This document shows positions 19,993 through 36,782 of a DNA stretch of 45,116 nt, piece by piece. The notes beneath the pieces were generated by a model that saw nothing but the letters and a program-made list of their open reading frames with translations, had not been told where the DNA came from and did no database searches. The translations under genes were made by a program, and so were the position numbers. Origin of the DNA: Prochlorococcus sp. AG-402-M15. GTDB lineage: Bacteria; Cyanobacteriota; Cyanobacteriia; PCC-6307; Cyanobiaceae. Each line of letters begins with the position of its first letter. Within the stretch, counting starts at the first letter, position 1. Where the stretch lies: NCBI GenBank assembly GCA_003216615.1, contig QCIP01000013.1, positions 1 through 45,116 of the forward strand, written 5' to 3'.

Positions 19993-20133
19993 TAAAATTA
20001 TAAAGACAAGATGACAATATAACTACGATTTAATTTCGTTAGTTTGTTGCGGGTTTTATTTGTCACCTTGTCATCGTCTATATGAAGAAATCAAATTCAA
20101 ATTACTTTCTTCACAATAAACAATTCAAAATTT

Positions 20134-22049: not shown

Positions 22050-22051
22050 AA

Positions 22052-22216: not shown

Positions 22217-22264
22217 AATTTCTACTTAATTGGTTACTACTATTTAGATGTAAATCATCTACTT

Positions 22265-23285: not shown

Positions 23286-24230
23286 TTATAAATGTTTTGA
23301 AATTTCGTTATACCAAATCAATAATTCCCGTTTGTCACCTAATTTCTTATCTCTCGCAATTTTTAATGAGTATCGGGTCGCATTATTATCTGTCGTTTCC
23401 ATCAACATATTCAACTTTGCGACATACGATTTACCATACTCCGTGTAGAAGTTTCTCTTACCACAATCACTTCTCATAATGAAACCCGTGAAAGTGCGGA
23501 GTGGTGCGTCTATCAGTTCATCAATAGTTTTGAGATTAAACATCTTCTTCCACTTATCATCTTTTTCTATAAACCATATAGGTGGTAGTTCTTTCTCAAT
23601 CACTTGTCTCCAATAAAGACTTCTTTCCCTTCGTTCCTGATGTCTAATTGATTTAATTGATATTGATTGATTTGGTTTCCTAAATGTCAAACCATAATTC
23701 TTACATAATCTTCTTAAATCTTCTTCAAATGAGTAAGTTCTTTCTCCTCCCAAATAAACATCAGTAGAACGAAATATTGAATATAAATGTTCTTGTTTTT
23801 TACTCCATCTACCCTTGTCAGTTTCGGTTACTAATTTACTTGGAAATCTAATTTGTTTTACCAAATATTCACTTTCTCTATATGACATATCTTTCGTTAT
23901 TGATTTCTTCTTAACTGCGATTTGTATCTCATCTGGTCTTAAAGAACAGAGACTATAAATGGTTCTGTAATGCGGTGGAAATGACCTACAAACCTCCTCT
24001 CTTGCGTCTATGGGTAAATCATCCATAGTGTCTCCAATCTTCTTCAAATTGGAATATATCTTGGGGTTTATATTTGATTTCTCTGTGAAGATTTTATAGA
24101 TGGATTTATCAAATACTTTTTTACTTCTTGATATTGTTAATGACAAGGTGACAATATCATCAATACTACCTTCGTATGAATGTTTTCTTGTAATATCCAA
24201 CGCAGTATCAAGGGTTAGTGTCTTTGTCAT
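23286..24230 (-). CDS. Unrecognised 314-aa protein, possibly DNA-binding
   Basis: The N-half is helical (LTLDTALDITRKHSYEGSIDDIVTLSLTISRSKKVFDKSIYKIFTE). It has a segment HYRTIYSLCSLRPDEIQIAVKKKSITKDMSYRES that loosely resembles the helix-rich DNA-binding part of ParB/phage replication-control proteins. The C-half is basic. It diverges from the helicase gene across 145 bases. Its start codon sits inside a copy of the iteron-like motif (24224-24236), and another copy lies within the gene, suggesting self-control or that this protein binds the motif. Function not recognised. Confidence 0.6.
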   Translation of the reverse strand: MTKTLTLDTALDITRKHSYEGSIDDIVTLSLTISRSKKVFDKSIYKIFTEKSNINPKIYSNLKKIGDTMDDLPIDAREEVCRSFPPHYRTIYSLCSLRPDEIQIAVKKKSITKDMSYRESEYLVKQIRFPSKLVTETDKGRWSKKQEHLYSIFRSTDVYLGGERTYSFEEDLRRLCKNYGLTFRKPNQSISIKSIRHQERRERSLYWRQVIEKELPPIWFIEKDDKWKKMFNLKTIDELIDAPLRTFTGFIMRSDCGKRNFYTEYGKSYVAKLNMLMETTDNNATRYSLKIARDKKLGDKRELLIWYNEISKHL

Positions 24231-24375
24231 CTTGTCTTCACCGATTTAATGAAATCTTACTATGCCGTGAAGAAATCGTGAAGAAAAAGTATCTAAACAA
24301 ACATATACATTACGACAACTATCCGTGAAGAAGTCAAATTACAATTAAAGAGTAGTTTATACAATACTTAAAATT

Positions 24376-26367
24376 ATGACCTCTATACTTTGGGATAGTC
24401 GGTTCTTAAACGAATTCAAACAAGAACTACACCACAACCCTTCTATTCAATTTTGGGAAGAAGATGTTAATGGTGATGTAATGGATTTCAAATCAACCCA
24501 TTACAAAAAAATGTTGATGAAGTTCTTCCCTGCGTTAGGTGTGAAGAACCTTCAATTAGGAACTACCGATAAAGGGAGACCAACTTCAACTTTGGTATTC
24601 ACTCGTGGAAATCGTGTAGAACAAATTGACCCACAAACTCTTAAACAAGTCTGTTTTAGATTATTTAATTTGATGGGTGAGAAAGGAACTCAAATTAGAA
24701 ATAACTTCTATAAAGAGAAGGTATTCAACAAAGACGAACTTTCCTTAATACCTGATTTAGAAGGTAAAAAAGTCTTCAAGGATAATGTATTAAGTGCGTA
24801 TCGTTTCTTTCAAAATGGATTTGTTGAGATTACCCGTAATGGTGTTTCACCTCTTAAATCCTATGACGAAATTCCAGAAGATTATGTGATTTGGAACTCT
24901 TCGGTCATTCCAAAAGACTATGAAGACACCATCACCAAAGAAGTTCTGGAACATAAACTCTCTAACATAATCGCAAATGGTATTCATCCCGAAACTGGTG
25001 ATTTGATTTACCAAAAGAATGACAGAGTAAAACTTTATCAAGAGTTCAAGGATAAAGTAGAAAGTTTTGAAGGAGAAAATCCAGACACTCATTTCAAAGA
25101 CTTTGTTGAAAATTTAAGTCGTGATGAAGAAGGAGATATTGATAAAAATTGTCTTGAACGATTGGAAATTGCGATTGGTTATTTGTGTCATAGATACAAC
25201 ACCGCAAACAAGAGACAATATGTTCTTCTGGTGGATAGATTTTATGACGGGGTAGAAAAGGATGTTGCGAATGGTGGTAATGGTAAGTCTCTACTTATCA
25301 ATACTCTTGGAACACTTATGAACCTAACCATATTGAATGGTAAGGAGATTAAGAAGAATTCAAGTTCCTTCAAACTCGCAGAAGTCACAACTGCGACTGA
25401 AATCGTTCATTTTGATGACGCACATTCCAAGTTTGATGGGGATAGATTAAATCCTCTTGTTACTGGAAACTTTCATATTGAACGAAAGTATGAGAACCCA
25501 TTCTCTATACCTTCACAAGACGCACCTAAAATTGCGATTACTTCTAATTTTCCTATTGAAGGAAAAGGTAATACTTATAAGAGAAGACAATTCATTTGTG
25601 AAGTAGGTCATTATTATCGTCTTCAAGATGAAAACTTTGGTTTAACTCCAAGAGAACTTCACGGGTGTAAAGACTTTCCATTACCTAACCAAATCAATAC
25701 CGAAGGAGAACCTTTCTCTTGGAGTAAGAGTGATTGGAATGAATTCTATCGTTATGTATTTCGTTGTATTCAAAAGTATCTCAAAGATGGATTACCTTCT
25801 GGTGGTGAGAGTTACTACTACAATCGTGCGAAAATCGTTCAAGAGATTGGTAGTGAAGAGGTTACTACTTATCTAATTGATAAAATTCAAACTCTTGATA
25901 TTGGTAAAGAATACTTCAACGAAGAAATCTATAAAGACCTTCAAGAGACTTTCCCAAACCATCTTGAAAATGTTTCAACGATGAGTATGTATGGATGGTT
26001 AGTTTCTATCGGGAAACTTTGTAAGTTGTTTGTCAATCAACATCGTGGTGGAAGACAAGACAACCAAAGATTAAATGAAGAGAGATGGGAACGATATGTT
26101 TCTGTCGGTTTAGAAGATTGGATTAACAAAGAAGGTAGAACCAGAAAAAATCCAAAGGGTATTCCATCTGGGGAACAAGACCGAGTAGGTGTATTCAAGA
26201 TTTCTTCTATGAAAGTTCCAACCAGTATGGTTTCTAAACCAGACTTTTCATCAAATACCGATGACAAGGTGACAAGTGAAGAACCTGTTAAGAAGGTGAA
26301 GAAAAAGATGACGAAGAAGAAGGTCAAAGAAGAACCTACCAAAGTCAATCTTGAAGACTTCTCTTAA
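24376..26367 (+). CDS. SF3-type replicative helicase (phage/plasmid primase-helicase C-domain type)
   Basis: The 663-residue ATPase has an N-terminal region (~1-250) of unknown fold and an SF3/D5-like helicase domain. Walker A is GGNGKS (K304-S305), Walker B is EIVHFDDAH (D347, D348), and motif C (sensor) is IAITSN (to N381). The C-terminal tail is Lys-rich (about 640-660) with an iteron-like motif in its DNA. D5/P4-type helicases unwind origins of satellites, phages and plasmids. No primase motif was recognised at the N-terminus. It is followed by a strong intrinsic terminator. Confidence 0.83.
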   Translation: MTSILWDSRFLNEFKQELHHNPSIQFWEEDVNGDVMDFKSTHYKKMLMKFFPALGVKNLQLGTTDKGRPTSTLVFTRGNRVEQIDPQTLKQVCFRLFNLMGEKGTQIRNNFYKEKVFNKDELSLIPDLEGKKVFKDNVLSAYRFFQNGFVEITRNGVSPLKSYDEIPEDYVIWNSSVIPKDYEDTITKEVLEHKLSNIIANGIHPETGDLIYQKNDRVKLYQEFKDKVESFEGENPDTHFKDFVENLSRDEEGDIDKNCLERLEIAIGYLCHRYNTANKRQYVLLVDRFYDGVEKDVANGGNGKSLLINTLGTLMNLTILNGKEIKKNSSSFKLAEVTTATEIVHFDDAHSKFDGDRLNPLVTGNFHIERKYENPFSIPSQDAPKIAITSNFPIEGKGNTYKRRQFICEVGHYYRLQDENFGLTPRELHGCKDFPLPNQINTEGEPFSWSKSDWNEFYRYVFRCIQKYLKDGLPSGGESYYYNRAKIVQEIGSEEVTTYLIDKIQTLDIGKEYFNEEIYKDLQETFPNHLENVSTMSMYGWLVSIGKLCKLFVNQHRGGRQDNQRLNEERWERYVSVGLEDWINKEGRTRKNPKGIPSGEQDRVGVFKISSMKVPTSMVSKPDFSSNTDDKVTSEEPVKKVKKKMTKKKVKEEPTKVNLEDFS

Positions 26368-26376
26368 AAACAAAAA

Positions 26377-26406
26377 GACTTAAAGGTAATCCAAAACCTT
26401 TAAGTC
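26377..26406. other. 11-bp perfect hairpin after the helicase gene
   Basis: GACTTAAAGGT and its exact complement ACCTTTAAGTC flank an 8-base loop, 9 bases after the helicase stop. No U-run follows, so it may protect the mRNA end or block read-through together with the terminator at 26454. Confidence 0.5.
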
Positions 26407-26453
26407 TCTATTATCAAAAGAGATGTTTCTACTCATCCAAAATTATTTAGGAT

Positions 26454-26481
26454 AAGACCACTCAAAGTGGTCTTTTTATTT
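26454..26481 (+). terminator. Intrinsic terminator of the helicase transcript
   Basis: AAGACCACT and AGTGGTCTT form a 9-bp stem with a 3-base loop, followed by TTTATTT. This is a textbook rho-independent terminator. An iteron-like motif begins at its end (26480). Confidence 0.8.
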
Positions 26482-26493
26482 GTCATCTTGTCA

Positions 26494-26634
26494 TTAAAAT
26501 TTTGCGGTAATACTTACCACTCTTGCGGTTGGATTTCTTGATAATGCGGTTAGTTTCGCATCTTGATAATCTTTTGCGATTACATTCTCATAGAATATCT
26601 TTCCAGAAATGTATAGAGTTACTTCCCAATTCAT
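26494..26634 (-). CDS. 46-aa small protein coupled to the serine recombinase
   Basis: ATG at 26634 overlaps the recombinase stop (ATGA). GGGAGG at 26641-26646, on the minus strand, is a good ribosome binding site 6 bases upstream. The product begins MNWEVTLYISGKIFYENVIA, continues KDYQDAKLTALSRNPTARVV and ends in SITAKF. It is a beta-alpha-beta-like mini-protein of a kind common in phages. The strong RBS and coupling support expression; function unknown. Confidence 0.6.
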   Translation of the reverse strand: MNWEVTLYISGKIFYENVIAKDYQDAKLTALSRNPTARVVSITAKF

Positions 26635-27191
26635 TTTTCACCTCCCTTTTTAAGAAGACGATAAACACTATCACGATGGATATTTAATTCTCTTGCGATT
26701 TGGGTCGCACCATATCCTTCTTCTTTCAATTTTTTAATCTGTTCTACATCAATATTTTGTTTTCTACCTTTATAAACACCTTTCTCTTTTGCGTTTTTAA
26801 TACCTTCTAATTGTCTTTCTCTTCGTAAGTTAGTTTCAAACTCACTAAACACACTCAACATATCAAGAAAACATTTACCTGATGCGGTTTTAGTGTCTAT
26901 TGGTTGTTCTGTTGCGGTTAGAGTTACACCTTTTTCATTTAATTGTTTAACTATCGTTTGTAAGTCAAGAACACTCCTCGCAAGTCGGTCAATTCTGGTG
27001 ATTACAAGTTCATCTCCTTCACGAACAAAATCAAGACACTCTTTTAACTTGTCTCTACCTTTGGTAGTTGTTCCAGAACCAGTCTCCACGAACATCTTAT
27101 CCACACCAAACTTTTCAAGGATGTCTATTTGAGTTTCCATTCCTGTCTCTTGACCTTTGTGACTGGATACTCTTGAATACGCAACTTTCAT
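26631..27191 (-). CDS. Serine recombinase (resolvase/invertase family)
   Basis: The 186-residue small serine recombinase has catalytic Ser9 in YSRVSSHKGQ. The catalytic-domain Arg residues lie in VITRIDRLARSVLDL, and the long E-helix is around SEFETNLRRERQLEGI. The C-terminal helix-turn-helix is GYGATQIARELNIHRDSVYRLLK. Size matches Tn3-type resolvases. A 33-bp dyad and further copies of its half-site lie immediately upstream of the gene, as expected for a res site. It could resolve multimers made by rolling-circle replication or tandem integration. Confidence 0.92.
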   Translation of the reverse strand: MKVAYSRVSSHKGQETGMETQIDILEKFGVDKMFVETGSGTTTKGRDKLKECLDFVREGDELVITRIDRLARSVLDLQTIVKQLNEKGVTLTATEQPIDTKTASGKCFLDMLSVFSEFETNLRRERQLEGIKNAKEKGVYKGRKQNIDVEQIKKLKEEGYGATQIARELNIHRDSVYRLLKKGGEK

Positions 27192-27197
27192 AATAAT

Positions 27198-27297
27198 GTG
27201 TCGTTTTTAACTCATAGACCCATAATAGTATGGTGTCGTTTAATTGGCAACCATTTATAAACGACATAATATATGGGTTAAAGTGTCGTGTCGTTTT
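27198..27297. promoter_or_regulatory. Candidate res site for the serine recombinase
   Basis: TGTCGTTTA (27234-27242) and TAAACGACA (27258-27266) form a perfect 9-bp inverted pair, a 33-bp dyad centred near 27250. Extra TGTCGTTTT copies are at 27198 and 27289, with ACGACA-type half-sites at 27323 and 27379. Multiple short dyads next to a resolvase gene are typical of res sites that also repress the resolvase promoter. Confidence 0.65.
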
Positions 27298-27443
27298 TGT
27301 TTGTTTTGTTTCTACCCAATTACGACATCGTTGATTGTTAATTAGTTTTGATAATGACAAGATGACAAGTTGAATTATTCACGACATTCTTTACACTTAA
27401 ATCAATAAGTATCGTTCAAAAGTATAAAGAATTATGGGTTTAA

Positions 27444-27464
27444 GTTTGTTGCGGGTTTGTTGCG
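27444..27464 (+). repeat. Right arm-type repeats of element 1
   Basis: Two copies of GTTTGTTGCG with an 11-bp period lie 63 bases before the right core. They match the left-end pair at 19971. A degenerate homologous pair lies at 31383-31403 in element 4, also 63 bases before its core. Confidence 0.65.
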
Positions 27465-27527
27465 AAAGTATCAACTTTATAGATGTCAATCATACCAATA
27501 GAAGTGAAGGGGTCTTTTATGATGGTT

Positions 27528-27544
27528 CTATTGAGTGGGAATAA
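27528..27544 (+). repeat. Core 2: attR of element 1 / attL of element 2
   Basis: CTATTGAGTGGGAATAA is identical over all 17 bases to the end of guaA. It lies between the right end of element 1 and a left-end-type sequence that again starts 40 bases before an arm pair. Confidence 0.9.
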
Positions 27545-27679
27545 GTTATAGGGTCAGATTGTAGTTATATCCTCATTTTTGCTGTTTGTCACGGGTTTGT
27601 CACGTATGACATGGCAACGTAAATACTGGGATTTCACCCCCTCTGTTTGTCATGCGTTTGTCACGAACCTAATTGACCG

Positions 27680-27749
27680 TCTCTTAAGAGAAATCGTATA
27701 AAGTCTCTTTTCTCTACAGTTGGTATATTTATTGAAAGATGATTTTTAG
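27680..27749 (+). promoter_or_regulatory. Shared leader block, copy 1
   Basis: It starts with the perfect palindrome TCTCTTAAGAGA, then AATCGTATAAAG, a TTTTCTCT half-repeat, and TTGGTATATTTATT just before the start codon. The same block precedes all eight secreted-protein genes, so it probably holds promoter, operator or a regulated 5' UTR. AGAGAAA and TTTTCTCT can form an alternative hairpin. Confidence 0.65.
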
Positions 27750-28154
27750 ATGAAAAAACGAACTGCTTTAATTTTTCATTCACAAAAGGTTTTACCTATT
27801 TGTAAAACGATTTTGAAAGTTACGGGTACTTTTTTGACAACTTTAATACTAACTATTCCATTTCCTCAAAATGCAAAAGCAGAGACTTGGTCGTGTAAAT
27901 ACGAATTTGCAGGGAAAACTCAAAAATTTATTACATATAGACAAGGTAAAATATTCAATAGTCCGGATACAGGTATTTATCAAATTATTGATGAAAATAA
28001 TAGGAAAATACATTTGTATCATTCTTATTTGCCAGATATGGAAAATTATTACGCAATTTCTTATGATAAAAATAAAAAAATCTTTTCAATGGTTGCTCTA
28101 AGTCCAGGTAATGACAGCGCAATAATTTCTGGTCCTTGTAAAGTAAGTTATTGA
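27750..28154 (+). CDS. Small secreted protein with MKKRTA leader, non-TPR
   Basis: The 134-residue protein begins MKKRTALIFHSQKVLP and has a second hydrophobic stretch. It has a cleavage-like NAKA-ET near residue 45. The mature ~90 residues look beta-rich (SCKYEFAGKTQKFITYRQGKIF...) with two Cys (one near the start, one in GPCKVSY) that could pair. It resembles the protein at 32752 in plan. It shares only the leader and first codons with the neighbouring TPR genes. Probably periplasmic or surface; function unknown. Confidence 0.65.
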   Translation: MKKRTALIFHSQKVLPICKTILKVTGTFLTTLILTIPFPQNAKAETWSCKYEFAGKTQKFITYRQGKIFNSPDTGIYQIIDENNRKIHLYHSYLPDMENYYAISYDKNKKIFSMVALSPGNDSAIISGPCKVSY

Positions 28155-28358
28155 AATTAGTTTCAAAGTTGGTTATTAAATTGTTTGTAAATTAAGTTTG
28201 GATTTATTCTTTTTAATCAAATACGTATTCTCTACAATCAGTTCATCTAATTACAATGAAAAATATAAATAATGGAAGTCTTCGGTTTGTCACGTATTAT
28301 ATATTAAAGGAATTACTGGGATTTTAATCCCTCTGTTTATCATAGACCTAATTGAGCG

Positions 28359-28427
28359 TCTCTTAAGAGAAATCCTATGAAGGCTGTTTGATCTACATTT
28401 GATATATTATTTAAAAGTATTTTTGAT
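28359..28427 (+). promoter_or_regulatory. Shared leader block, copy 2
   Basis: TCTCTTAAGAGAAATCCTAT opens the block as in copy 1. About 40 bases upstream are also shared with copy 1 (CTGGGATTT..., CCCTCTGTTT), so the duplicated unit is longer than the leader. The second half is more diverged. Confidence 0.6.
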
Positions 28428-29129
28428 ATGCAAAAACGAACTGCTTTTATTGGTGCAATATTATCTTTAATTCCATTAGGTCATCCATTAATGATTAAAA
28501 CTGGTGTAGTTTTATCTACGACAGGATTGATACTTTCTATTCCTGAAAAAGTAAATGCAGAGAGCGCTAATTTTTATTTTGATCGTGGTTATAAGAAGTA
28601 TGTCAAAGGTGATTATTACGGATCAATATCTGACTTTACAAAAGCGATAGAAATTGATCCAAAAGATTCAGGTGCTTATTATAATCGAGCGATAGTAAAG
28701 CATGATTTAGAAGATTATTACAGAGCAATATCTGACTATACAAAAGCGATAGAAATAGACCCAAATTATAAGGAAGCGTATTACAATCGGGGTCTTGTAA
28801 AAGAAGATTTAAATGATAACTACGGAGCAATATCTGACTATACAAAAGCGATAGAAATTGATCCAAATTATGCTAAATCATATAATAATAGAGGAAGATT
28901 AAAGCATAGTTTAGAAGATTATTACGGAGCAATATCTGATTTTATAAAAGCGATAGAAATTGATCCAAATTATGCTCTAGCATACTCAAATCTTGCGGTA
29001 ACCAAAGGAGAAGGATTTGAGGATGATGAAGGTGCTTGTAGTGATATAAAAAAAGCAGCATTATTAGGAGATAAATATCGAATAGATTGGTTAGAAACTT
29101 CTGAAGGTAAATGGTGTCAGGATATGTAA
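28428..29129 (+). CDS. Secreted TPR-repeat protein
   Basis: The 233-residue protein has the family leader MQKRTAFIGAILSLIPLGHP...VLSTTGLILSIPEKVNA, about 45 residues with two hydrophobic stretches and cleavage likely after VNA. About five 34-residue TPR units follow, with consensus DYYGAISDYTKAIEIDPNYKEAYYNRG. A shorter capping unit (GACSDIKKAALLGDK) and a C-terminal Trp/Cys (KWCQDM) end it. TPRs are protein-binding scaffolds. Function in the periplasm or at the surface is unknown. Repeat units are nearly identical at DNA level. Confidence 0.82.
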   Translation: MQKRTAFIGAILSLIPLGHPLMIKTGVVLSTTGLILSIPEKVNAESANFYFDRGYKKYVKGDYYGSISDFTKAIEIDPKDSGAYYNRAIVKHDLEDYYRAISDYTKAIEIDPNYKEAYYNRGLVKEDLNDNYGAISDYTKAIEIDPNYAKSYNNRGRLKHSLEDYYGAISDFIKAIEIDPNYALAYSNLAVTKGEGFEDDEGACSDIKKAALLGDKYRIDWLETSEGKWCQDM

Positions 29130-29261
29130 GATTCTCTAAAATTAGTTTATATAGTTACAAAGAAAAGTATAAAAGAATTGGTCATTTCGGTTTTAAGTTA
29201 GTTTTACATGGAATATATTTCTCTGAAAACTCAGTTATAGATTAAATTATTTTTTTAGGTT

Positions 29262-29278
29262 TTATTGAGTGGGAGTGA
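29262..29278 (+). repeat. Core 3 (variant)
   Basis: TTATTGAGTGGGAGTGA matches the guaA end at 14 of 17 bases. It separates element 2 from element 3 and is followed, 39 bases later, by the element 3 arm pair. Confidence 0.75.
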
Positions 29279-29317
29279 AGAATAGAGTATAAATCCAGTT
29301 ATAGAATCAAAAACTTG

Positions 29318-29339
29318 GTTTCCCTTAGGTTTCCCTTAG
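29318..29339 (+). repeat. Left arm-type repeats of element 3
   Basis: Two perfect tandem copies of GTTTCCCTTAG begin 39 bases after the core, the same offset as in elements 1, 2 and 4 but with a different sequence after GTTT. Confidence 0.6.
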
Positions 29340-29352
29340 ACTTAAATTCTTG

Positions 29353-29395
29353 TCTCTATAGAGAAATCGTAGAGTTTTAAATTTCTCTACGCCTT
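29353..29395 (+). promoter_or_regulatory. Orphan leader block in element 3
   Basis: TCTCTATAGAGAAATCGTAG followed by ATTTCTCTAC matches the first half of the shared leader, but no signal-peptide gene follows; a leftward gene ends at 29402. Either the gene was lost or the block belongs to the element end rather than to the gene. Confidence 0.5.
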
Positions 29396-29401
29396 AATAA
29401 A

Positions 29402-29719
29402 TTAGTTTTTTAGTTTTTTAATTTTTTCTAAATTCCATTTGTCAAATATTAATTTCATTTCTCTTTCGTAGTATCTCACTTTCTTTGAGAAAGGTAGTTT
29501 TTGAATAATTATCCCAAAGGGAATTTTAAAGAAAGAAGAAACATAAACAATATAAAACTCGATGAAGGAAGGTTTTTCAGGAAGAGGTAAATTTTTTAAA
29601 TATGCCCAATCAATGCACGGTTTTAGTTGCTTATCACTAGCAGAAATATTTTTTTTACATCTCCAGTAAGAGAATAGATAAATGCCAATAAAAATCGGTA
29701 AAGGAAGAAGTCGCAACAT
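29402..29719 (-). CDS. Small membrane-anchored protein
   Basis: The 105-residue protein has an N-terminal hydrophobic segment (MLRLLPLPIFIGIYLFSYW, one membrane pass). A second hydrophobic stretch (SFIEFYIVYVSSFFKIPFGIII) lies near residues 50-72, and the end is a basic helix (KWNLEKIKKLKN). It lies alone inside mini-element 3 and is its main cargo. No family recognised. Confidence 0.5.
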   Translation of the reverse strand: MLRLLPLPIFIGIYLFSYWRCKKNISASDKQLKPCIDWAYLKNLPLPEKPSFIEFYIVYVSSFFKIPFGIIIQKLPFSKKVRYYEREMKLIFDKWNLEKIKKLKN

Positions 29720-29881
29720 TAAATATCAAGGATTATTTTTCTTTTCATTAATTCTATAAGTGATAGTTTAGTTTTTATGAAAATTCTTGATGATACTCCA
29801 AAGTACTTCTACTAGGGTAATAATACTCTATGAATTTTAAGTTAATAGGAGGACAATATAGATATAGATCTAGGAGGTCTT

Positions 29882-30064
29882 ATGAAACTATTCAATCAAT
29901 TCAATGTCCTTCCAAGATACCTAACTGCATTTCATTATGCAGGGTTAAACTTGAATGAGACTCCACAAGAACTAGAAAAATGTACTCCTGAGTTTCAAAA
30001 CTTTTGGGAGAAAGAATGTAAAGAACATCCAACAAATCAAAATTGTTTAATTTACTGTGACTAA
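29882..30064 (+). CDS. Small Cys-containing protein with perfect ribosome binding site
   Basis: The 60-residue protein begins MKLFNQFNVLPRYLTAFHYA and has four Cys, the last three in KECKEHPTNQNCLIYCD. AGGAGG at 29872-29877, 4 bases before the ATG, is a perfect Shine-Dalgarno sequence, and a second AGGAGG lies at 29847. Such strong sites are rare in this window, so high translation is likely. It looks like a small picocyanobacterial stress-type protein; function not known. Confidence 0.65.
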   Translation: MKLFNQFNVLPRYLTAFHYAGLNLNETPQELEKCTPEFQNFWEKECKEHPTNQNCLIYCD

Positions 30065-30110
30065 GTATTTAATTTTGAGTTTTTATTAAATAAAATCTGC
30101 CTAAAAAGAG

Positions 30111-30132
30111 GTTTTCCTCAGGTTTCCCTCAG
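30111..30132 (+). repeat. Right arm-type repeats of element 3
   Basis: GTTTTCCTCAG then GTTTCCCTCAG, an 11-bp tandem, 70 bases before the next core. It is near-identical to the left pair at 29318. Confidence 0.6.
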
Positions 30133-30202
30133 GAAAATGGACGTTATTATGGGTTCAAACATGTTGGTATCACAGCGTTTATGACTACCTTTTATCTTGG
30201 TA

Positions 30203-30219
30203 CTATAGAGTGGGAATAA
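30203..30219 (+). repeat. Core 4
   Basis: CTATAGAGTGGGAATAA, 16 of 17 identical to the guaA end. It is followed by a close copy of the element 1 left end (30220-30290), including GTTTGTTGCG 39 bases on and a trace of the iteron-like motif at 30278. Confidence 0.85.
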
Positions 30220-30404
30220 ACTAAAGGGTAAAAGTGCAGTCATATCTTCATTCTTGCGGTTTGTTGCGAATTTAATTTTTCACCTTGTCATCTTCTATAT
30301 CAAGAAATCAATCTTCAATGATTTTCTTCACAAAATCTACATTGAATTAATATTAAAATATTATATGAAGTGAAAAATTAAAAAAATATTCTTCTGCTAT
30401 TGAT

Positions 30405-30821
30405 ATGCGAGGGTTAAAAATAATTGCTGGTTTTATTTTTTTAATTTTTGGATCTTTTCTTTATTTGAAATTTCGATCGCAAACTTTGCTGATGTTTAAG
30501 TGGGCAGAAACTCTTGGTCTTAATTACATTATAAGTTCAATTCGTGGATCATCCTCAGTCTTGAATTCGCATCAAATGAAATATGTTGTATTTTCTGCTC
30601 CATTTGGAATGTGGGTAATATCTTTTTGCTGCTTTATTGGTGCTATTTGGCATAAAGATAGTTCTGTTGCGGCGATTATTTGGCGTCTTTTTGTACCTGC
30701 TATTGCTATTAGTTCTGAGTTGCTTCAATTTTTAGGATTATTACCAGGGACTTATGATACAAATGATTTGTTACTTCTTATCGTTTCTACTATTATTGGT
30801 GTTACTATTTCCATTTTATAA
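30405..30821 (+). CDS. VanZ-like membrane protein
   Basis: The 138-residue protein has about four membrane segments. The conserved block AISSELLQFLGLLPGTYDTNDLLLLIVSTIIG resembles the VanZ family signature (E-x-x-Q ... D-x-x-D/N ... G). VanZ-like proteins are linked to envelope stress and low-level glycopeptide resistance, but most have unknown roles. Its stop overlaps the start of the next gene by one base (TAATG), so the two are coupled cargo of element 4. Confidence 0.68.
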   Translation: MRGLKIIAGFIFLIFGSFLYLKFRSQTLLMFKWAETLGLNYIISSIRGSSSVLNSHQMKYVVFSAPFGMWVISFCCFIGAIWHKDSSVAAIIWRLFVPAIAISSELLQFLGLLPGTYDTNDLLLLIVSTIIGVTISIL

Positions 30822-31255
30822 TGAAGATAAATAAGATATTAAAAAATATTCTTTCCGCAGGAGCACTGACCATTTTTATTATTCTTGGTGGGGGGAGTCT
30901 GGATACTGATGAAGGCGCTGAAAAAATTTCTGTCGCAACTCCCGATTATGTTTTATCAGCAAATACACTGTTTAAGGAATACGATACAAACTCTGTTGCT
31001 GCTGATGCTAAATACGAAGATAAGATTGTAGTAGTTTCAGGCACTATTCAAAGTATTGGTAAAGATATTATGGATACTGCTTATTTAGTTATTGGAGGGA
31101 GCGGTTTTCTTGATGGTGTTCAATGTATGCTGCCGAGGGGGCAAGAAGGTTTAGTTGCGAGAGTTGGTAAGGGACAATATGTCACTCTCAAAGGCAAGGT
31201 TTCTGGTCAGATAATGGGTAATGTAATCGTTAACAATTGCTCCTTTTCTAATTAA
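30821..31255 (+). CDS. Exported OB-fold protein (tRNA_anti-like family)
   Basis: The 144-residue protein has a signal-type start (MKINKILKNILSAGALTIFIILGGG). The rest has the OB-fold pattern of the tRNA_anti-like family: ANTLFKEYDTNSVAADAKYEDKIVVVSGTIQSIGKD...VQCMLPRG...VGKGQYVTLKGKVSGQ...NVIVNNCSF. Such small exported OB proteins have unknown ligands. Translationally coupled to the VanZ-like gene, suggesting an envelope function for the pair. Confidence 0.72.
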   Translation: MKINKILKNILSAGALTIFIILGGGSLDTDEGAEKISVATPDYVLSANTLFKEYDTNSVAADAKYEDKIVVVSGTIQSIGKDIMDTAYLVIGGSGFLDGVQCMLPRGQEGLVARVGKGQYVTLKGKVSGQIMGNVIVNNCSFSN

Positions 31256-31466
31256 TAACCGATAAATTCTTGTCTGAGTTTCTTCTGATTAAAAAAACTA
31301 ATGTCAAATTGAATTCTTATTGACATTATTTACACTTATATCAAAAAGTATCTTTCAAAAGCATAAAGAATTATGGGTTTAACTTTGTTGAGGGTTTTTT
31401 ACGAAAGTATCAACTTTATAGGTGTCAATCATACCAATAGAAGCGTATGAGTCTTTTAAGGTGGTT

Positions 31467-31483
31467 CTATTGAGTGAGAATAA
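31467..31483 (+). repeat. Core 5
   Basis: CTATTGAGTGAGAATAA, 16 of 17 identical to the guaA end. It is followed by a second type of left end (AGTTATAAATTCAATTAATC) shared with the site at 34036, and GTTTTACG 37 bases on. Confidence 0.82.
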
Positions 31484-31591
31484 AACGATTTTAAGAATCT
31501 AGTTATAAATTCAATTAATCGTTTTACGTGAGATATATGCAAAATAATGGTTAATTAATAGCAGTGCTTTTGGGCGATAAAATCTAGTGCG

Positions 31592-31696
31592 GTTTTACGT
31601 GGTTTTTACTTAGCATTTTTTCTCTGTCTTTTTAGAGAAATTGTAGAAAGTCTATTTTCTCTTCAGTTGGTATATTAATTAAAAGTAAATTTTGAT
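31592..31696 (+). promoter_or_regulatory. Shared leader block, copy 3
   Basis: GTTTTACGTGG plus a second GTTTTTACTTAG arm-like repeat come first, then TTTCTCT/AGAGAAA dyad, TTTTCTCTTCAG and TTGGTATATTAATTAAAAG. It aligns without gaps to 32647-32751 with a single difference, and the identity continues into the coding start. Confidence 0.65.
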
Positions 31697-32578
31697 ATGA
31701 AAAAACGAACTGCTTTTATTGGTGCAATATTATCTTTAATTTCAATCGGGCATCCTTTACTTATTAAAAAAAGTGTAGTTTTATCATCTGCAAGTTTGAT
31801 GATTTCTTCTACTGAAAAAGTATATGCGGGAGATAATTCTTATTACTTTAATAGTGCTTTTGATAAGGGAGAAAAAGGTGATTATTACGGAGCGATATCT
31901 GACTACACAAAGGCGATAGAAATTAATCCAAATGATGGTATGGCATATTACAATCGTGGGTGGAATAAGGTTCAAATCAACGATTATTACGGAGCGATAT
32001 CTGACTACACAAAAGCGATAGAAATCAATCCTCAATATGCAGATGCATACTACAACCGTGGGAATGTAAAGAGAGAGTCAGGAGATTATTACGGAGCAAT
32101 ATCTGACTACATAAAAGCAATCGAGATCAATCCAAAGTATGCAGATGCCTATCATAATCGCGGCGTTGCAAAGGAGTTGTTGAAGGATTACAAAGGTGCT
32201 CTTAAAGATTATGAAAAAGCGCTTTTACTGGATCCTGATGATTATTTAACTTGGCAAGGGGTAGGAGTGACAAAGAAAAACCTCGGTGACCATTACGGAG
32301 CAATAACTGCATATAACAAATCAATCGAGATCAATCCAAGGAATGAATACGCGTATAACAACCGTGGGAATGCTAAAAAAGAAATAAAAGATTATCAAGG
32401 AGCAATATCTGACTATACAAAAGCGATAGCAATCAATCCAAAGTATGCAATGGTATATAAAAACCGTGGTATTTCAAAGGAACTGATAGAAGATATAAAA
32501 GGTGCTTGTTCTGATTGGAAAAAGGCATCTTCCTTAGGAGATAAAGATGCTGCAGAATGGGTAAGAGAACAATGTTAA
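31697..32578 (+). CDS. Secreted TPR-repeat protein (seven units)
   Basis: The 293-residue protein, longest of the family, has the leader MKKRTAFIGAILSLISIGHP...STEKVYA, with cleavage likely near residue 45. About seven TPR units follow, most reading DYYGAISDYTKAIEINP..ADAYYNRG. The fourth (ALKDYEKALLLDPDD) and fifth units are diverged. It ends with the capping unit IKGACSDWKKASSLGDKDAAEWV, also seen in the 33307 protein. Likely periplasmic or surface-exposed protein-binding scaffold; partner unknown. Confidence 0.82.
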   Translation: MKKRTAFIGAILSLISIGHPLLIKKSVVLSSASLMISSTEKVYAGDNSYYFNSAFDKGEKGDYYGAISDYTKAIEINPNDGMAYYNRGWNKVQINDYYGAISDYTKAIEINPQYADAYYNRGNVKRESGDYYGAISDYIKAIEINPKYADAYHNRGVAKELLKDYKGALKDYEKALLLDPDDYLTWQGVGVTKKNLGDHYGAITAYNKSIEINPRNEYAYNNRGNAKKEIKDYQGAISDYTKAIAINPKYAMVYKNRGISKELIEDIKGACSDWKKASSLGDKDAAEWVREQC

Positions 32579-32646
32579 AAATAAAATGTATTCTCTATAA
32601 ATAGTTCATATAGTCACGATGAAAAGCGTAAAGATAAGTCATTTCA

Positions 32647-32751
32647 GTTTTACGCGGTTTTTACTTAGCATTTTTTCTCTGTCTTTTTAGAGAAATTGTA
32701 GAAAGTCTATTTTCTCTTCAGTTGGTATATTAATTAAAAGTAAATTTTGAT
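32647..32751 (+). promoter_or_regulatory. Shared leader block, copy 4
   Basis: Same block as 31592-31696 with one base difference, directly upstream of a gene whose mature part is unrelated to TPR proteins. Confidence 0.65.
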
Positions 32752-33132
32752 ATGAAAAAACGAACTGTAATTTTTAGTTTTCTATTATTTACCGGTGCTA
32801 ATGCTTTATTTCCATTTATAGGGAATGCAAATGCTGAAGATTATATTTGTTCTACTGTTGATGGGGAAGAGAGACCAACTTATAAAAGAATTAATAATAA
32901 TAAATTTATTTCTACTATTACTCTGGATGGAGAAAAATCCACCAGTGAATTATCTATAGTAAAAGAAACTAAAAATTTTATAGTTTTAATTCAAACATTT
33001 GACTATCAAGATTCTTGGACGACTGTTTTAGATAAGAAAAACAAAGAGTATTCTGAAACTTATACAATTTGGGATCCTGGGAAGGAACCAGAGGTTGCTC
33101 AAAGTTTTGGATCTTGTTTAGTAGTTGATTAA
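32752..33132 (+). CDS. Small secreted protein with MKKRT leader, non-TPR
   Basis: The 126-residue protein begins MKKRTVIFSFLLFTGANALFPFIGNANA, an ordinary signal peptide with cleavage after NANA (~28). The mature ~98-residue beta-type domain has two Cys (YICSTVDGEERPTYKRINN...FGSCLVVD) that could link the ends. In plan it resembles the 27750 protein (Cys near mature N-terminus and near C-terminus). Identity to the TPR genes ends a few codons in. Function unknown. Confidence 0.65.
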   Translation: MKKRTVIFSFLLFTGANALFPFIGNANAEDYICSTVDGEERPTYKRINNNKFISTITLDGEKSTSELSIVKETKNFIVLIQTFDYQDSWTTVLDKKNKEYSETYTIWDPGKEPEVAQSFGSCLVVD

Positions 33133-33201
33133 ATTTAATAATGTATCTTCCACAATTAGTTCATATAATTCCATCGAAAAGAATAAAAAATGGGTCATTT
33201 C

Positions 33202-33306
33202 GTTTTTATACGGGTTTTACACGAATACTTTTCTCTGTTTCTTAAGAGAAAGCCTATAAAGTTTATTTTCTCTTCAGCTGGTATATTGATTAAAAGTAAA
33301 TTTCAT
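33202..33306 (+). promoter_or_regulatory. Shared leader block, copy 5
   Basis: Arm-like GTTTTTATACGG and GTTTTACACGA, then TTTCTTAAGAGAAAGCCTAT, TTTTCTCTTCAG and GGTATATTGATTAAAAG. The in-frame TGA within GGTATATTGA shows the leader is not translated into the gene. Confidence 0.6.
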
Positions 33307-33885
33307 ATGAAAAAACGAACTGCTTTGATTGCTGGAATATTATCTTTAATTCCTCTTGGGCAACCATTATTAATTAAAACTGGTTTCGTTTTATCTTCTA
33401 CAGGATTGATACTTTCTTTTCCTAAGAAAATTTATGCAGAAAGTGTAGATTATTATTTAAAAAAATTAGATGAGATTTATCTTGTAAACGGAGAAGAAAA
33501 TACAACTATATTTTATGCTAATAAGTTGCTACAAATAGATCCATCTAATTCGGATGCATATTGGTATCGCGCTTATTCCAAAGTTGAATTAGGTCTATAT
33601 GAAGATGGAATAAATGATTATAAAAAATCTATTGAACTTGGGGATAAAGATCCAATGACATACACAAATATTGGTTATGCTTTTTATGAATTAGGAGATA
33701 ACTATAAAGCAATATCTTACTATAATAAATCTCTTCAAATGGATTCAAAAAATATTAGAGCATACTTAAATCGAGGTATTGCTAAAGAAAAAATAAATGA
33801 TCAAAAAGGTGCATGTGCTGATTGGCGAAAAGCATCACAATTAGGAAATCAAGAGGCGGCGCAGTGGGTTATAAATGATTGTTGA
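33307..33885 (+). CDS. Secreted TPR-type protein, short and diverged
   Basis: I start at ATG 33307 (192 aa), not at ATG 33190, because the conserved leader MKKRTALIAGILSLIPLGQP begins here and the upstream 39 codons are the shared leader DNA. Signal peptide to about residue 46 (KKIYA). Then about four TPR-like units, more diverged than in the neighbours (SNSDAYWYRAYSKVELGLYEDGINDYKKSIELGD), ending in the shared cap GACADWRKASQLGNQEAAQWV. Confidence 0.78.
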   Translation: MKKRTALIAGILSLIPLGQPLLIKTGFVLSSTGLILSFPKKIYAESVDYYLKKLDEIYLVNGEENTTIFYANKLLQIDPSNSDAYWYRAYSKVELGLYEDGINDYKKSIELGDKDPMTYTNIGYAFYELGDNYKAISYYNKSLQMDSKNIRAYLNRGIAKEKINDQKGACADWRKASQLGNQEAAQWVINDC

Positions 33886-34035
33886 AAATAAAATTTTATT
33901 CTCAAAATGGTTCATACAGTCACGATGAAAATTATAAAGAATGGATTTATTTCTGTTTTAGATGCTTTTATAAAGTATTTATTGCTTATGAAATCAGTGA
34001 TTCCAATATTGTTCAATGTTCAAAATCAAGAGGTC

Positions 34036-34052
34036 CTGCTAAGTTGGAATAA
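34036..34052 (+). repeat. Core 6 (degenerate)
   Basis: CTGCTAAGTTGGAATAA, 13 of 17 identical to the guaA end. Support comes mainly from the following 40 bases, which match those after core 5 (TTTTAAGAAACCAGTTATAA), and a GTTTTATTTCA/GATTTACCTAG pair 38 bases on. Confidence 0.55.
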
Positions 34053-34120
34053 AAGTATTTTAAGAAACCAGTTATAAATTAAATTAATAGGTTTTATTTC
34101 AGATTTACCTAGCACATTTT

Positions 34121-34194
34121 CGCTGTCTTTAAGAGAAATCGTATAAAGTATCTTTTCTCTAAAGTTGGTATATTTATTAAAAGTAAATTTTGAT
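34121..34194 (+). promoter_or_regulatory. Shared leader block, copy 6
   Basis: CTGTCTTTAAGAGAAATCGT, TATAAAG, TCTTTTCTCTAAAG, then TTGGTATATTTATTAAAAG up to GAT-ATG. About 310 bases (33886-34194) before the gene hold only this block, the degenerate core and a cassette 3' flank. Confidence 0.6.
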
Positions 34195-34923
34195 ATGAAA
34201 AAAAGAACTGCTTTTATTGGCGCGATATTATCTTTAATTCCAATAGGTCAACCTTTAATTATTAAAAATGGTGTAATTTTATCAACTATTGGATTAATGC
34301 TTAATGTTCCTGAAAAATCTCATGCAGAGAGTGGTGATATCTATTTTAACCGTGGAATTGATAAATATGATGCTGGTGATTATTACGGAGCAATCTCTGA
34401 TTATACAAAAGCGATAGAGATCAATCCAAGAGATGAAGATGCTTATTTCAACCGAGGACTAGCGAAGAGAAACTTAGAAGATTATTACGGAGCAATCTCT
34501 GATTATACAAAAGCGATAGAGATCAATCCAAATAATGCAGATACTTATCATAATCGTGGCGTAGTAAAGGAGAATTTACAGTATTACGAAGGTGCTCTAA
34601 AAGATTACGAAAAAGCAACTTCAATAGATCGAGATGCTTACCTAGGATGGTCGGGAGTTGGTAATATGAAAATTAAGTTAAAGGACTATTACGGAGCAAT
34701 CTCAGCTTTAAATAAGGCGATTGAACTCAATCCAAGTGCTTTAAAAGTTTATAATAATCGTGGGATCGCTAAGTGGAAAATTGGAGACGAAAAAGGAGGG
34801 TGTGATGATTTTAAAAAAGCAATTTCACTTGGTAATAAAGAAACAGAAAAATGGTTTAAAACCGAAGGTGCTGATTGGTGTCGAAATATGCAGGGTTCTC
34901 AAAAATTAGTTCATAATAATTAA
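34195..34923 (+). CDS. Secreted TPR-repeat protein
   Basis: It starts at ATG 34195 (242 aa). ATG 34165 would add ten residues from the shared leader, whose frame is broken by stops in sister genes. Leader MKKRTAFIGAILSLIPIGQP...PEKSHA, then about six TPR units (DYYGAISDYTKAIEINPRDEDAYFNRG type; one EGALKDYEKATSIDRD unit as in the 31697 protein). The cap GGCDDFKKAISLGNKETEKWF and a Cys/Trp tail end it. Confidence 0.8.
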   Translation: MKKRTAFIGAILSLIPIGQPLIIKNGVILSTIGLMLNVPEKSHAESGDIYFNRGIDKYDAGDYYGAISDYTKAIEINPRDEDAYFNRGLAKRNLEDYYGAISDYTKAIEINPNNADTYHNRGVVKENLQYYEGALKDYEKATSIDRDAYLGWSGVGNMKIKLKDYYGAISALNKAIELNPSALKVYNNRGIAKWKIGDEKGGCDDFKKAISLGNKETEKWFKTEGADWCRNMQGSQKLVHNN

Positions 34924-34975
34924 GAAAAATTATGAATTAATTCACTGTTTGGTTTTCCATGAAGCTTTTTTTTAT

Positions 34976-35046
34976 GTCTCTTAACAGAAATAGTGTTAAG
35001 TTTGTTTTTTCTAAAGTTGGTATATTGATAAGTAGTAAATTTTGAT
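34976..35046 (+). promoter_or_regulatory. Shared leader block, copy 7 (weakened)
   Basis: GTCTCTTAACAGAAATAGTG, then TTTTTTCTAAAG and TTGGTATATTGATAAGTAG. The palindrome has one mismatch and the CTCT half-site is eroded; the last 35 bases before ATG remain conserved. Confidence 0.55.
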
Positions 35047-35736
35047 ATGAAAAAAAGAACTGCTTTTATAGGAGCGATATTATCTTTAATTCCATTTGGG
35101 CAAGCTTTATTTATAAAAACCGGCTTTGTTGTATCAACTGCGGGATTGATGCTTTCTGTTCCTGAAATATTAAATGCAGAAACTTTTACCTTTTTTTTTA
35201 ATACTGCTATTGAAAAGGGAAATAAAGGTAACCATTACGGAGCAATTTCTGACTATACAAAAGTAATAGAAATCAATCCAAAATATGAAAAAGCATATTT
35301 CAATCGTGGATGGCACAAAGCAAAATTGAATGATTATTCTGGAGCAATTTCTGACTATACAAAAGCGATAGAGATCAATCCAAAATATGCAAAGGCATAT
35401 TACAATCGTGGAAATTCTAAAACAAATTTAAACGATAATTATGGAGCGATTGCAGACTATACAAAAGCGATAGAGATCAATCCAAAATATGCAAAGGCAT
35501 ATTACAATCGTGGAATTTCTAAAACAAATTTAAATGATAATTATGGAGCGATTGCAGACTATACAAAAGCGATAGAGATCAATCCAAAATTTATAGACGC
35601 ATATTTTAATAGAAGTATGTCTAAAGAAAATGTAGGAGATATTAAAGGGGCATGTTTTGATGCAAAAAAAGTAGTTTTTTTAGGTGATGAAGATTCTGCT
35701 AATGAAAGTTGGATTAGGAAAAATTGTTCATTATGA
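35047..35736 (+). CDS. Secreted TPR-repeat protein with near-perfect 102-bp repeats
   Basis: The 229-residue protein has leader MKKRTAFIGAILSLIPFGQA...PEILNA, then about five TPR units. Two consecutive units, TNLNDNYGAIADYTKAIEINPKYAKAYYNRG type, are almost identical in DNA (35401-35502 and 35503 on), so the array grew recently. The cap is IKGACFDAKKVVFLGDE and it ends RKNCSL. Confidence 0.8.
   Translation: MKKRTAFIGAILSLIPFGQALFIKTGFVVSTAGLMLSVPEILNAETFTFFFNTAIEKGNKGNHYGAISDYTKVIEINPKYEKAYFNRGWHKAKLNDYSGAISDYTKAIEINPKYAKAYYNRGNSKTNLNDNYGAIADYTKAIEINPKYAKAYYNRGISKTNLNDNYGAIADYTKAIEINPKFIDAYFNRSMSKENVGDIKGACFDAKKVVFLGDEDSANESWIRKNCSL
35401..35592 (+). repeat. 102-bp tandem TPR-coding repeat
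   Basis: Units beginning TACAATCGTGGAA at 35401 and 35503 differ at only a couple of bases over ~90 aligned positions. Period 102 = 34 codons, one TPR. Confidence 0.85.
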
Positions 35737-35899
35737 TTTAATTAAAAAATTTATCCTCTACAATTAGTTAATATAAATAGAACGTAATCCTTCAAGAATT
35801 GTTTATTGCTGTTTTACAAGAACCTTTTGCCTGTCACGATTGAAAAATAATAATAAGTTCATTTCTTTATAAATGGTATATTTATTAAAAAATTTTTTT

Positions 35900-36490
35900 A
35901 TGTATAAAAGAACTGCTTTTATTGGTGCAATATTATCTTTAATTCCATTAGTGCAACCATTATTGATAAAAACTGGTGTCATTTTATCTAGTTCTGTAGT
36001 AATGCTTTCTTTGACTGAAAAAGTTAATTCAGAGAGTGCAAAATTTTATATTGATATAGCAGATGATAAGTTTAACGATAAAGATTACTATGGAGCAATT
36101 TCTGACTACAATCGTGCATTAAAAATAAATCCTGATTCTGTTTATGCATTAACTAGAATTGGCAGAAGTAAATATTACTTGAAAGACTATCAAGGGGCAC
36201 TTCAAATTTTAAATAAAGCAGTCAATATCAATGAAAATTATAAATTTAGTTTTGTAATTCGAGGAGATGTAAAATTTGCTTTAGGAGATTATTATGGAGC
36301 AATTTCTGACTATAATAAATCTATCAAAATAGATTCAAAAGATTTTTTCCCTTATTATTTTCGAGGTCTAGCAAAGCAACAATTAGGAGATACTAATGGT
36401 GTATGTTCCGATATGAGAATGTCACTTGAACTTTCCACAAATAATCAAGCAACAATGATATTAAAAAAATTCATAAAAAATTATTGTTGA
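35900..36490 (+). CDS. Secreted TPR-type protein, most diverged copy
   Basis: It starts at ATG 35900 (196 aa; ATG 35873 lies in the leader). Leader MYKRTAFIGAILSLIPLVQP...LTEKVNS, then four to five TPR-like units (DYYGAISDYNRALKINPDSVYALTRIG; DYQGALQILNKAVNINENYK). The cap GVCSDMRMSLELSTNN has lost the GAC-D-KKA form. The upstream leader (about 35830-35899) keeps only the GGTATATTTATTAAAA end. Confidence 0.75.
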   Translation: MYKRTAFIGAILSLIPLVQPLLIKTGVILSSSVVMLSLTEKVNSESAKFYIDIADDKFNDKDYYGAISDYNRALKINPDSVYALTRIGRSKYYLKDYQGALQILNKAVNINENYKFSFVIRGDVKFALGDYYGAISDYNKSIKIDSKDFFPYYFRGLAKQQLGDTNGVCSDMRMSLELSTNNQATMILKKFIKNYC

Positions 36491-36765
36491 TAGTTAGGTT
36501 TTTTAAAAAATAAATTATCAATAATCCGTTCATACAAAAACGAAAAGTTTTTTTACTGATTTAGATATTAAAGAATTAAGACATATATGGGGTGTTGAAA
36601 AAGAAAATTAATTTTTTATTGAATATGAAAACGTATTCTCTAAAATTAATTCATATAGTTAAAATGATGAAGATTAAGAATCGATCATTATGCTTTTAAA
36701 CGGAAATTGCAACTTCTAAGAAGTCAATGATATTAATTTATTACAATCATCAAAATTGGCTAGAA
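36491..36765. pseudogene. Relic cassette: possible gene tail plus 3' flank repeat
   Basis: No intact gene. Codons 36552-36611 read FTDLDIKELRHIWGVEKEN-stop, possibly the end of a lost gene. They are followed at about 36632 by TATTCTCTAAAATTAATTCA, the 3' flank sequence that follows the other cassette genes. This suggests a deleted cassette. Low certainty. Confidence 0.25.
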
Positions 36766-36782
36766 CCATTGAGTGGGAATAA
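36766..36782 (+). repeat. Core 7: right boundary of the island
   Basis: CCATTGAGTGGGAATAA, 16 of 17 identical to the guaA end. No arm pair follows at 37-39 bases, unlike every other core, so this is probably the original chromosomal side of the integration site. Confidence 0.8.

Follow-up and report, generated by a model that had tools for sequence, protein, structure and literature searches.

The guaA locus and its tandem array

The window, meaning the whole 45,116-bp stretch of DNA analysed here, is one contig (labelled G000:C13) of a Prochlorococcus host with a genome of ~1.6 Mb. It carries guaA, whose 3′ end is an attachment site that is repeated downstream (Table 1). A search of the window found five copies of the 21-base core at this end, that of guaA itself included, where 0.03 were expected. 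Behind guaA a tandem array extends from 19932 to 36782, of which element 4, an integrase-less cassette, is the fourth unit. The right core of element 4 (GAGTGAGAATAA) differs by one base from GAGTGGGAATAA, and between the core that ends the array and the chromosomal gene beyond it lie 70 bp, a distance like that at empty sites. Elements 2 and 3 are divided by a weaker core-like copy and carry GTTTGTCACG and GTTTCCCTTA, respectively, as their left arm words, the ~11-bp repeats described below. Element 5 is probably made up of several units whose inner cores have eroded. No tRNA genes occur in the window. Three minor observations were made in element 5: its TPR-type proteins have similar upstream regions, an eroded inner core-like site is found, for example, at 34038–34052, and GTTTTACGTG is present close to its left end.

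Table 1. Features of the guaA array, in order of position in the window.
Feature	Position	Strand	Basis or remark
guaA (GMP synthase)	18345..19931	+	Pfam GATase, GMP_synt_C
Core 1, guaA 3′ end, left border of element 1	19911..19931	+	core repeat
Element 1, putative autonomous helper	19932..27544	+	cores; arm word GTTTGTTGCG at both ends
Tyrosine integrase, 457 aa	20134..21507	+	PF00589 E=7.6e-10; relatives behind guaA
78-aa ORF overlapping integrase stop	21507..21743	+	position
Rep-like protein	22441..23091	-	REP_ORF2-G2P E=3.4e-4, below Pfam cut-off
Unassigned protein	23286..24230	-	relatives in most other integrase elements
DUF5906 primase/helicase-like protein	24376..26367	+	PF19263; PHROG 28855/864
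Small serine resolvase/invertase	26631..27191	-	PF00239 E=3e-39
Element 1 right arm, tandem GTTTGTTGCG	27444..27465	+	arm repeat
Core 2	27524..27544	+	core repeat
Elements 2 and 3	27545..30219	+	split at core-like repeat 29258-29278
Core 3, left border of element 4	30199..30219	+	core repeat
Element 4, integrase-less cassette, 1264 bp	30220..31483	+	shared ends, cores
Sole remaining element 4 arm word (<=1 mismatch)	30259..30268	+	five in element 1
Membrane protein, 138 aa, VanZ-like by motif	30405..30821	+	motif
OB-fold protein, 144 aa	30821..31255	+	PF12869 E=8e-21
Element 4 right end	31301..31483	+	87.4% identical to that of element 1; arm repeats mutated
Core 4	31463..31483	+	core repeat
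Element 5, several TPR-type genes	31484..36782	+	ORFs, repeats
Core 5, right end of array	36762..36782	+	core repeat

Element 1, the candidate helper, is 7613 bp long and holds five copies of GTTTGTTGCG, one of them a base off. The 78-aa ORF matched no family in Pfam or PHROG; a guess from its position is that it is possibly a directionality factor. The Rep-like protein contains an HLHIL stretch, which we take to resemble an HUH motif, and the presence of Rep-like and DUF5906 proteins in one element suggests that element 1 may replicate as a circle once excised. Phage matches of the DUF5906 protein are distant (five records). Among six proteins of the element, Pfam and PHROG revealed no recognisable conjugation genes. 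The integrase, whether alone or as a five-member alignment, had no match in viral contigs, nor did the core-plus-arm pattern; it had no relative among phage records and a single, distant match, from Rhizobium, among plasmid records.

A sequence-only reading of the window had placed element 4 at 30203–31483; its extent is better given as 30220–31483 plus the left core. The proposal that both ends copy those of element 1 held up. On the right, 31301–31483 aligns to 27362–27544 over 183 bp (E=1e-59). On the left, the match falls into two pieces, 30195–30273 with 19907–19985 (87.5%) and 30259–30333 with 20042–20116 (84%), so that ~56 bp of the element 1 left end are absent from element 4. Since the right ends align free of gaps, the equal arm-to-core spacing that had been described is upheld, but the distance of 63 bases is not, the arm repeat of element 1 starting 80 bases before the core. 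The absence of a recombinase was likewise borne out: two substantial genes lie inside, neither encodes a recombinase, and PF00589 has no match. As to the labels given to these genes, Pfam agrees with the OB-fold, while the VanZ-like assignment is by motif, that protein having no Pfam or PHROG match.

Element 4 is worn, with a left-arm deletion, mutated right arms and an altered right core. Its cargo is rare. The VanZ-like gene occurs in three of 266 genus genomes, its own included, the OB gene in two, and the pair in one other genome, G213, at 90.7% DNA identity. The G213 copy sits at the end of the guaA array, lacks the left end and has a shortened right arm. A unit in G008 has the VanZ part without the OB gene and keeps both arms well. 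From these features, element 4 is probably a stranded member of its family that moves rarely or no longer.

Occupancy, arm words and solo units across the genus

The guaA loci of the genus were surveyed at 150 sites, namely 143 from among the listed guaA matches (221 matches in 266 genomes) and seven added for their element or integrase matches (G118, G021, G022, G147, G119, G025 and G009), so that occupancy is somewhat inflated. Seven listed loci whose contig ends <1.8 kb past guaA were excluded (G014, G075, G087, G109, G154, G197 and G254), though others just as short stayed in. A core could differ at up to three positions, so that spurious ones may be among them. At 125 of the 150 loci the gene that follows on the chromosome was within reach. 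It follows guaA by <250 bp at 53 of them: 43 are empty, with a gap of 41–78 bp and no extra core, eight hold one 139–148-bp unit alone, and at the last two the gap is 192 and 235 bp. The 72 other loci are occupied, 58 with extra cores. In 34 of these 58 arrays the last core is 32–76 bp from the same next gene, while in the other 24 the distance is 126–6558 bp, indicating further material past the last recognised core. Given the similarity of the empty-site and last-core gaps, insertion falls precisely at the 3′ end of guaA wherever the border is clear.

Ninety-eight segments between cores are at least 250 bp long, and 42 of them passed the requirement for a repeat match of at least 8/10 at both ends at fixed positions. 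The matching test was run without the remaining 56, to which element 4 belongs; also outside the 42 are the short GTTTGTTGCG units of G025, G103, G102 and G008. In weak segments, the automated search for arms yields false repeats. In the 42 units, tandem repeats of ~11 bp start 36–40 bases past the left core and 80–104 bases ahead of the right one. Within a unit the two words match, with a mean of 9.55/10 compared with 7.19 after shuffling, a mean that none of 10,000 shuffles reached. Agreement in at least nine of ten bases is seen in 37 of the 42 units, compared with 8.9 expected and 18 at most in the shuffles. Arms that flank one shared core, and so belong to neighbouring units, have a mean of 7.23 and reach nine or more in four of 13 cases. 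From a list of eleven words compiled in this analysis, ten are met among the 42 units, including GTTTGTTGCG, GTTTGTCACG, GTTTCCCTCA, GTTTCCCGTG, GTTTCACGTG, GTTACACGTG and GTTTCACACG; the eleventh, GTTTTACGTG, was found at single ends and in solo units. The two ends of six units are nearest to different listed words, and the word score may reward rotated overlap (GTTTCCCGTG with GTTTCACGTG), which lifts the background as well.

Another 24 segments fall short of 250 bp, and 20 of them have the same arm repeat at the left (37–40) and right (79–89) positions; four do not fit. These solo units measure 147–148 bp in the word group with its right arm at -88/-89 and 139–140 bp in the -80 group. Some stand alone behind guaA, for example at L121 (G172), L142 (G023) and L082 (G071), and account for the eight occupied short-gap sites above. 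By analogy with solo LTRs, they would seem to be units that lost their cargo through recombination between left and right arms.

The guaA units span 0.7–8.3 kb, and 38 of the 42 well-kept ones have no tyrosine integrase. A PF00589 scan covered 34 whole genomes, including all 32 that hold the 42 units, and the only integrases it found inside arrays are the first-unit ones of G000, G009, G027 and G119. Some of the 38 units may still hold a serine recombinase, the Pfam scan of 79 cargo proteins having been judged from the best 25 of 63 families.

Integrase-less units also recur beside different neighbours. One unit of 1.15 kb occupies slot 1 in G176 and slot 2 in G286, the two copies being 92.9% identical over the full length (guaA 93.0%), and also slot 1 in G261, with 97.5% identity to G176 (guaA 90.1%). 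Slot 1 of G034 and slot 3 of G281 have a common unit at 91.4% (guaA 94.2%). Another unit is common to G147 and G249 at 92.7% with different left neighbours (guaA 79.8%), and one to G264 and G198 at 90.4% with different right neighbours (guaA 87.1%). The neighbours of a unit therefore change, and the identity of some units exceeds that of their hosts' guaA genes, although in G176/G286 and G034/G281 the unit is no more alike than guaA. Cargo, too, is found under different words: a 202-aa protein is 95.5% identical between G022 (GTTTCCCGTG) and G211 (GTTTCACACG).

Element 1 ends around other cargo, and the integrases

The sequence-only reading had proposed looking for the ends of element 1 around other short cargo, and such units do exist. 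A DNA search of 151 genus genomes gave matches in 69, the host's own included, many of them short and near E=1e-3. Nine two-ended units emerged in eight genomes, with four kinds of cargo: an integrase/Rep module, a VanZ-like protein with or without the OB gene, a small secreted protein, and a repeat protein. Element 1 is the one unit of the nine with an integrase. The short units of the seven other genomes are 835–999 bp long, compared with 1264 bp for element 4 and 7613 bp for element 1; those of G025, G118, G103, G062 and G102 encode small secreted proteins, that of G119 a repeat protein and that of G008 the VanZ-like protein. Their shared ends align over ~185 bp on the left and ~165 bp on the right, and the inner genes differ. 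The possibility that the short units form a deletion series of element 1 was rejected, as their inner sequences do not match it. G008 has another unit, which carries an acyltransferase-like gene and has an element-1-type end on the left only. The right end of element 1 is 87.7% identical to that in G118 (guaA 80.5%) and 79.9% to that in G102 (guaA 91.8%). Between the short units of G119 (L047) and G102 (L048), the right ends are 90.5% and the left ends 79.8% identical, and this unequal similarity suggests recombination between ends.

Strong matches to the element 1 integrase occur in five of 266 genus genomes (G000, G119, G009, G027 and G021), where the gene starts 203–1013 bp behind guaA in the first unit. 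Three more genomes, G077, G164 and G134, have distant relatives 9.6–15.7 kb behind guaA, past the gene closing the array. Close relatives in Prochlorococcus AG-409-O23 and Synechococcus AG-679-A04 are directly behind guaA. Across the order, 21 of 299 genomes match the integrase at E<=1e-20; eight of the new relatives were inspected and weaker matches set aside. The integrases of G300, G375, G329, G388, G367 and G295, and a shortened one in G343, are behind guaA. As a side observation, the stretch inspected around another shortened integrase, in G326 (L241), contains no guaA, and a different target site is possible there.

GTTTGTTGCG cassettes occur in seven other genomes. Six of these, 76–100% complete, have no element-1-type integrase; the seventh, G119, has one, in an element that bears the word GTTTCCCGTG. 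The idea of a resident helper for every cassette was thus rejected, and the helper must come and go. Words beside integrases include GTTTCACGTG (G375), GTTTCACACG (L203) and GTTTCCCGTG (G119), and all three also occur in integrase-less units elsewhere among the genomes. For GTTTGTCACG, GTTTTACGTG, GTTTCCCTCA, GTTACACGTG and CATCTCACGT, the guaA loci and the genus and order integrase searches yielded no cognate integrase.

In a comparison of 13 integrases, more similar proteins have more similar arm words, and the two are statistically linked through the N-terminus. With one integrase per cluster (n=10), residues 1–100 correlate with the word at r=0.71 (p=0.0003) and the rest at r=0.29 (p=0.13); within the element 1 clade (n=8) the values are r=0.80 (p=0.003) and r=-0.08. 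These correlations take no account of host relatedness. In blocks of 50 residues, 1–50 and 51–100 stand out, and 351–400 is borderline (r=0.38, p=0.053, n=10). The repeat of G388 is poor; under an alternative reading of it, the clade value for residues 1–50 falls to r=0.36 (p=0.13), and with G388 omitted the correlation for these residues is r=0.64 (n=9) or 0.70 (n=7), with p<=0.01. A structure model of the integrase (mean pLDDT 67, pTM 0.40) predicts, with moderate confidence, four strands and a helix at residues 11–94, as is expected of an arm-binding domain. Solved relatives match residues 262–440 only.

Probable mobilisation in trans and its relation to known systems

The explanation that best accounts for these patterns, and probably the correct one, is that the guaA units include cassettes mobilised in trans and addressed by their arm words. 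Element 4 would be a non-autonomous cassette in which two cargo genes are flanked by the element 1 family's attachment site, made up of the guaA 3′-end core and arm repeats. Element 1 or another autonomous element would supply the matching integrase; the N-terminal domain of this enzyme would recognise the arm word as a binding site, and the cassette would be cut out as a circle and reinserted at the guaA 3′-end core, restoring guaA. Repeated insertion would give rise to the tandem array, and recombination between arms would delete the cargo and leave a solo unit of 139–148 bp. Mobilisation by the element 1 integrase had been suggested in the sequence-only reading. As a probable mechanism it is well supported for the family, in which 38 of 42 units, and eight of nine two-ended units with element 1 ends, lack an integrase; the case is weaker for element 4, given its eroded arms and right core. 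Neither an excised circle nor an empty and an occupied site in one strain was seen.

A rather unlikely alternative is that element 4 is a deletion relic, that is, a formerly full member of the element 1 family from which an internal deletion removed the integrase and replication genes and which is now immobile, in the manner of a CIME formed by decay. The left-arm deletion and the mutated right arm and core fit such a history, as does the VanZ/OB copy of G213, which is also missing its left end, and CIMEs of this origin are on record (PMC5704250, from the part of the source available). A full-length ancestor in a sister strain, named beforehand as the case that would tell against a mobile cassette, did not appear: in none of the 266 genomes are the VanZ/OB genes inside an integrase-bearing unit. 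Short units with unrelated cargos, moreover, keep both ends, and similar integrase-less units recur in different slots. Plain decay may describe the present state of element 4, but it does not explain the family.

Exchange by homologous recombination through guaA, the shared cores and the arms, with no integrase acting on the cassettes, is improbable to a greater degree. Ends and flanks are homologous, the left and right ends of the same units differ in their pattern of similarity, cargo is common to units with different arm words, and changes of neighbour could also proceed through shared cores. Homologous exchange, however, needs neither borders at the core nor a word match within the unit, nor a link between word and N-terminus. 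It is very doubtful that another enzyme moves the cassettes, such as the tyrosine recombinase of ~389 aa encoded elsewhere in most of the scanned genomes. Integrase-family matches occur in 32 of the 34 genomes, 29 of which have a frame of 386–398 aa (grouped by length), and frames of similar length are present also in cassette genomes without an element-1-type integrase. One conserved protein is nonetheless unlikely to read ten or more arm words, and autonomous units with the same end layout have an integrase of their own near the left end. In the host genome of element 4, the 389-aa recombinase is away from guaA, at L244:627-1796 on the minus strand.

The closest tested precedent for mobilisation in trans is GIsul2, whose integrase excises and integrates an integrase-less, att-bounded CR2-sul2 unit on plasmids in recA-deficient E. 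coli (PMC9376610). GIsul2, like the element 1 family, is an island at the guaA 3′ end, and element 4 is likewise integrated at that end with a core repeat. The CR2-sul2 unit, unlike element 4, is the 3′ part of its island, with CR2 and resistance genes, and is several kb long by our estimate from plasmid sizes; matched arm words and solo units are not described for GIsul2 in the accessible part of that source (PMC9376610).

The closest kinds of element are CIMEs and the ssrA islands of Dehalococcoides. CIMEs are decayed ICEs or IMEs that can be transferred with an ICE; as far as the available text goes, they have no integration or transfer genes, keep attL and attR, and accrete in tandem with elements of the same site specificity (PMC5704250). 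Element 4 also lacks integration and transfer genes; its two cores are present, but its arms are eroded. The guaA units differ from CIMEs, as described in that text, in forming a recurring family of 0.7–8.3 kb found in different slots, and no conjugation gene is recognised in the six element 1 proteins. The Dehalococcoides islands similarly stand in tandem behind an essential gene with 3′-end repeats, 15 of them without an integration module, but they use a serine recombinase (CcrB-like) and target the tmRNA gene, according to the portion of the source at hand (PMC3146451).

Other island types were compared by what could be seen of their sources. The additive flexible genomic islands at tRNA-Lys of Methylophilaceae also form an array marked by repeats of the target-gene end; they differ in having a tRNA target, and arm words and a helper integrase are not described in the available text (PMC10872708). 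Tycheposons are likewise Prochlorococcus elements with a tyrosine recombinase, cargo and satellite forms (PMC10872708, PMC11389934). They are set apart by description, with tRNA targets and a size of 4–200 kb (PMC10872708); the site of element 4 is guaA, and the window has no tRNA gene. A picocyanobacterial integrase family, compared by description in the part of the source consulted, resembles the integrase of element 1 in being a tyrosine integrase of islands in Prochlorococcus and Synechococcus and in often having a small serine recombinase close by, and differs in its position beside tRNA-Phe or tRNA-Cys (PMC10187409). Kilobase size, matched words and cargo-free solo units are not described for the analogues compared, so far as these sources could be seen.

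Two earlier analogies proved loose. MITEs have inverted repeats and a DDE transposase, as opposed to direct repeats of the guaA end, a single site and a tyrosine integrase partner. Phage satellites fit poorly as well, since PHROG identified no packaging, capsid-remodelling or phage-induction genes among six element 1 and two element 4 proteins. Integron gene cassettes have attC sites that fold as single strands and an IntI integrase; the appearance of the guaA element sites, with their arm repeats, is that of double-stranded phage-type att sites. Literature on Prochlorococcus guaA integrases or GMP-synthase islands, judged by titles and with subscription papers aside, contained nothing on this array.

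Prochlorococcus genomes are small and have many variable genes, and the entry and exit of single genes is a standing question. Recombinase-less kilobase cassettes that borrow a helper integrase via matched words would, if real, be a simple route for such gene traffic. About as likely as not is a broader proposal, in which the guaA 3′ end of marine picocyanobacteria would be an integron-like docking site made up of phage-type att sites: several families of mostly integrase-less cassettes would share the core and differ in 11-bp words, rare helpers, whose integrases each read a single word through the N-terminal domain, would load and unload the cassettes of their family, and cargo would be swapped between families and solo units left behind. 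This would amount to nearly orthogonal address labels at one single site. The pairing of arm word and integrase N-terminus would be a testable code, and it points to a possible set of integrases with one common target and different donors. The core with matched arm words also offers a search signature for integrase-less elements missed by gene-based island finders.

With respect to cargo, the OB-fold protein of element 4 matches PHROG_8545 ‘Sie-like’, annotated as superinfection exclusion (E=1.4e-14), and from this annotation the cassette may be protective against phage. Among the matches listed for the 79 cargo proteins, seven proteins have TPRs, three have type I methylase domains and three specificity domains. 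Restriction-modification or helicase genes were noted in some integrase-less cassettes, at L140, L151, L196 and L060, so that the guaA site also collects candidate defence genes.
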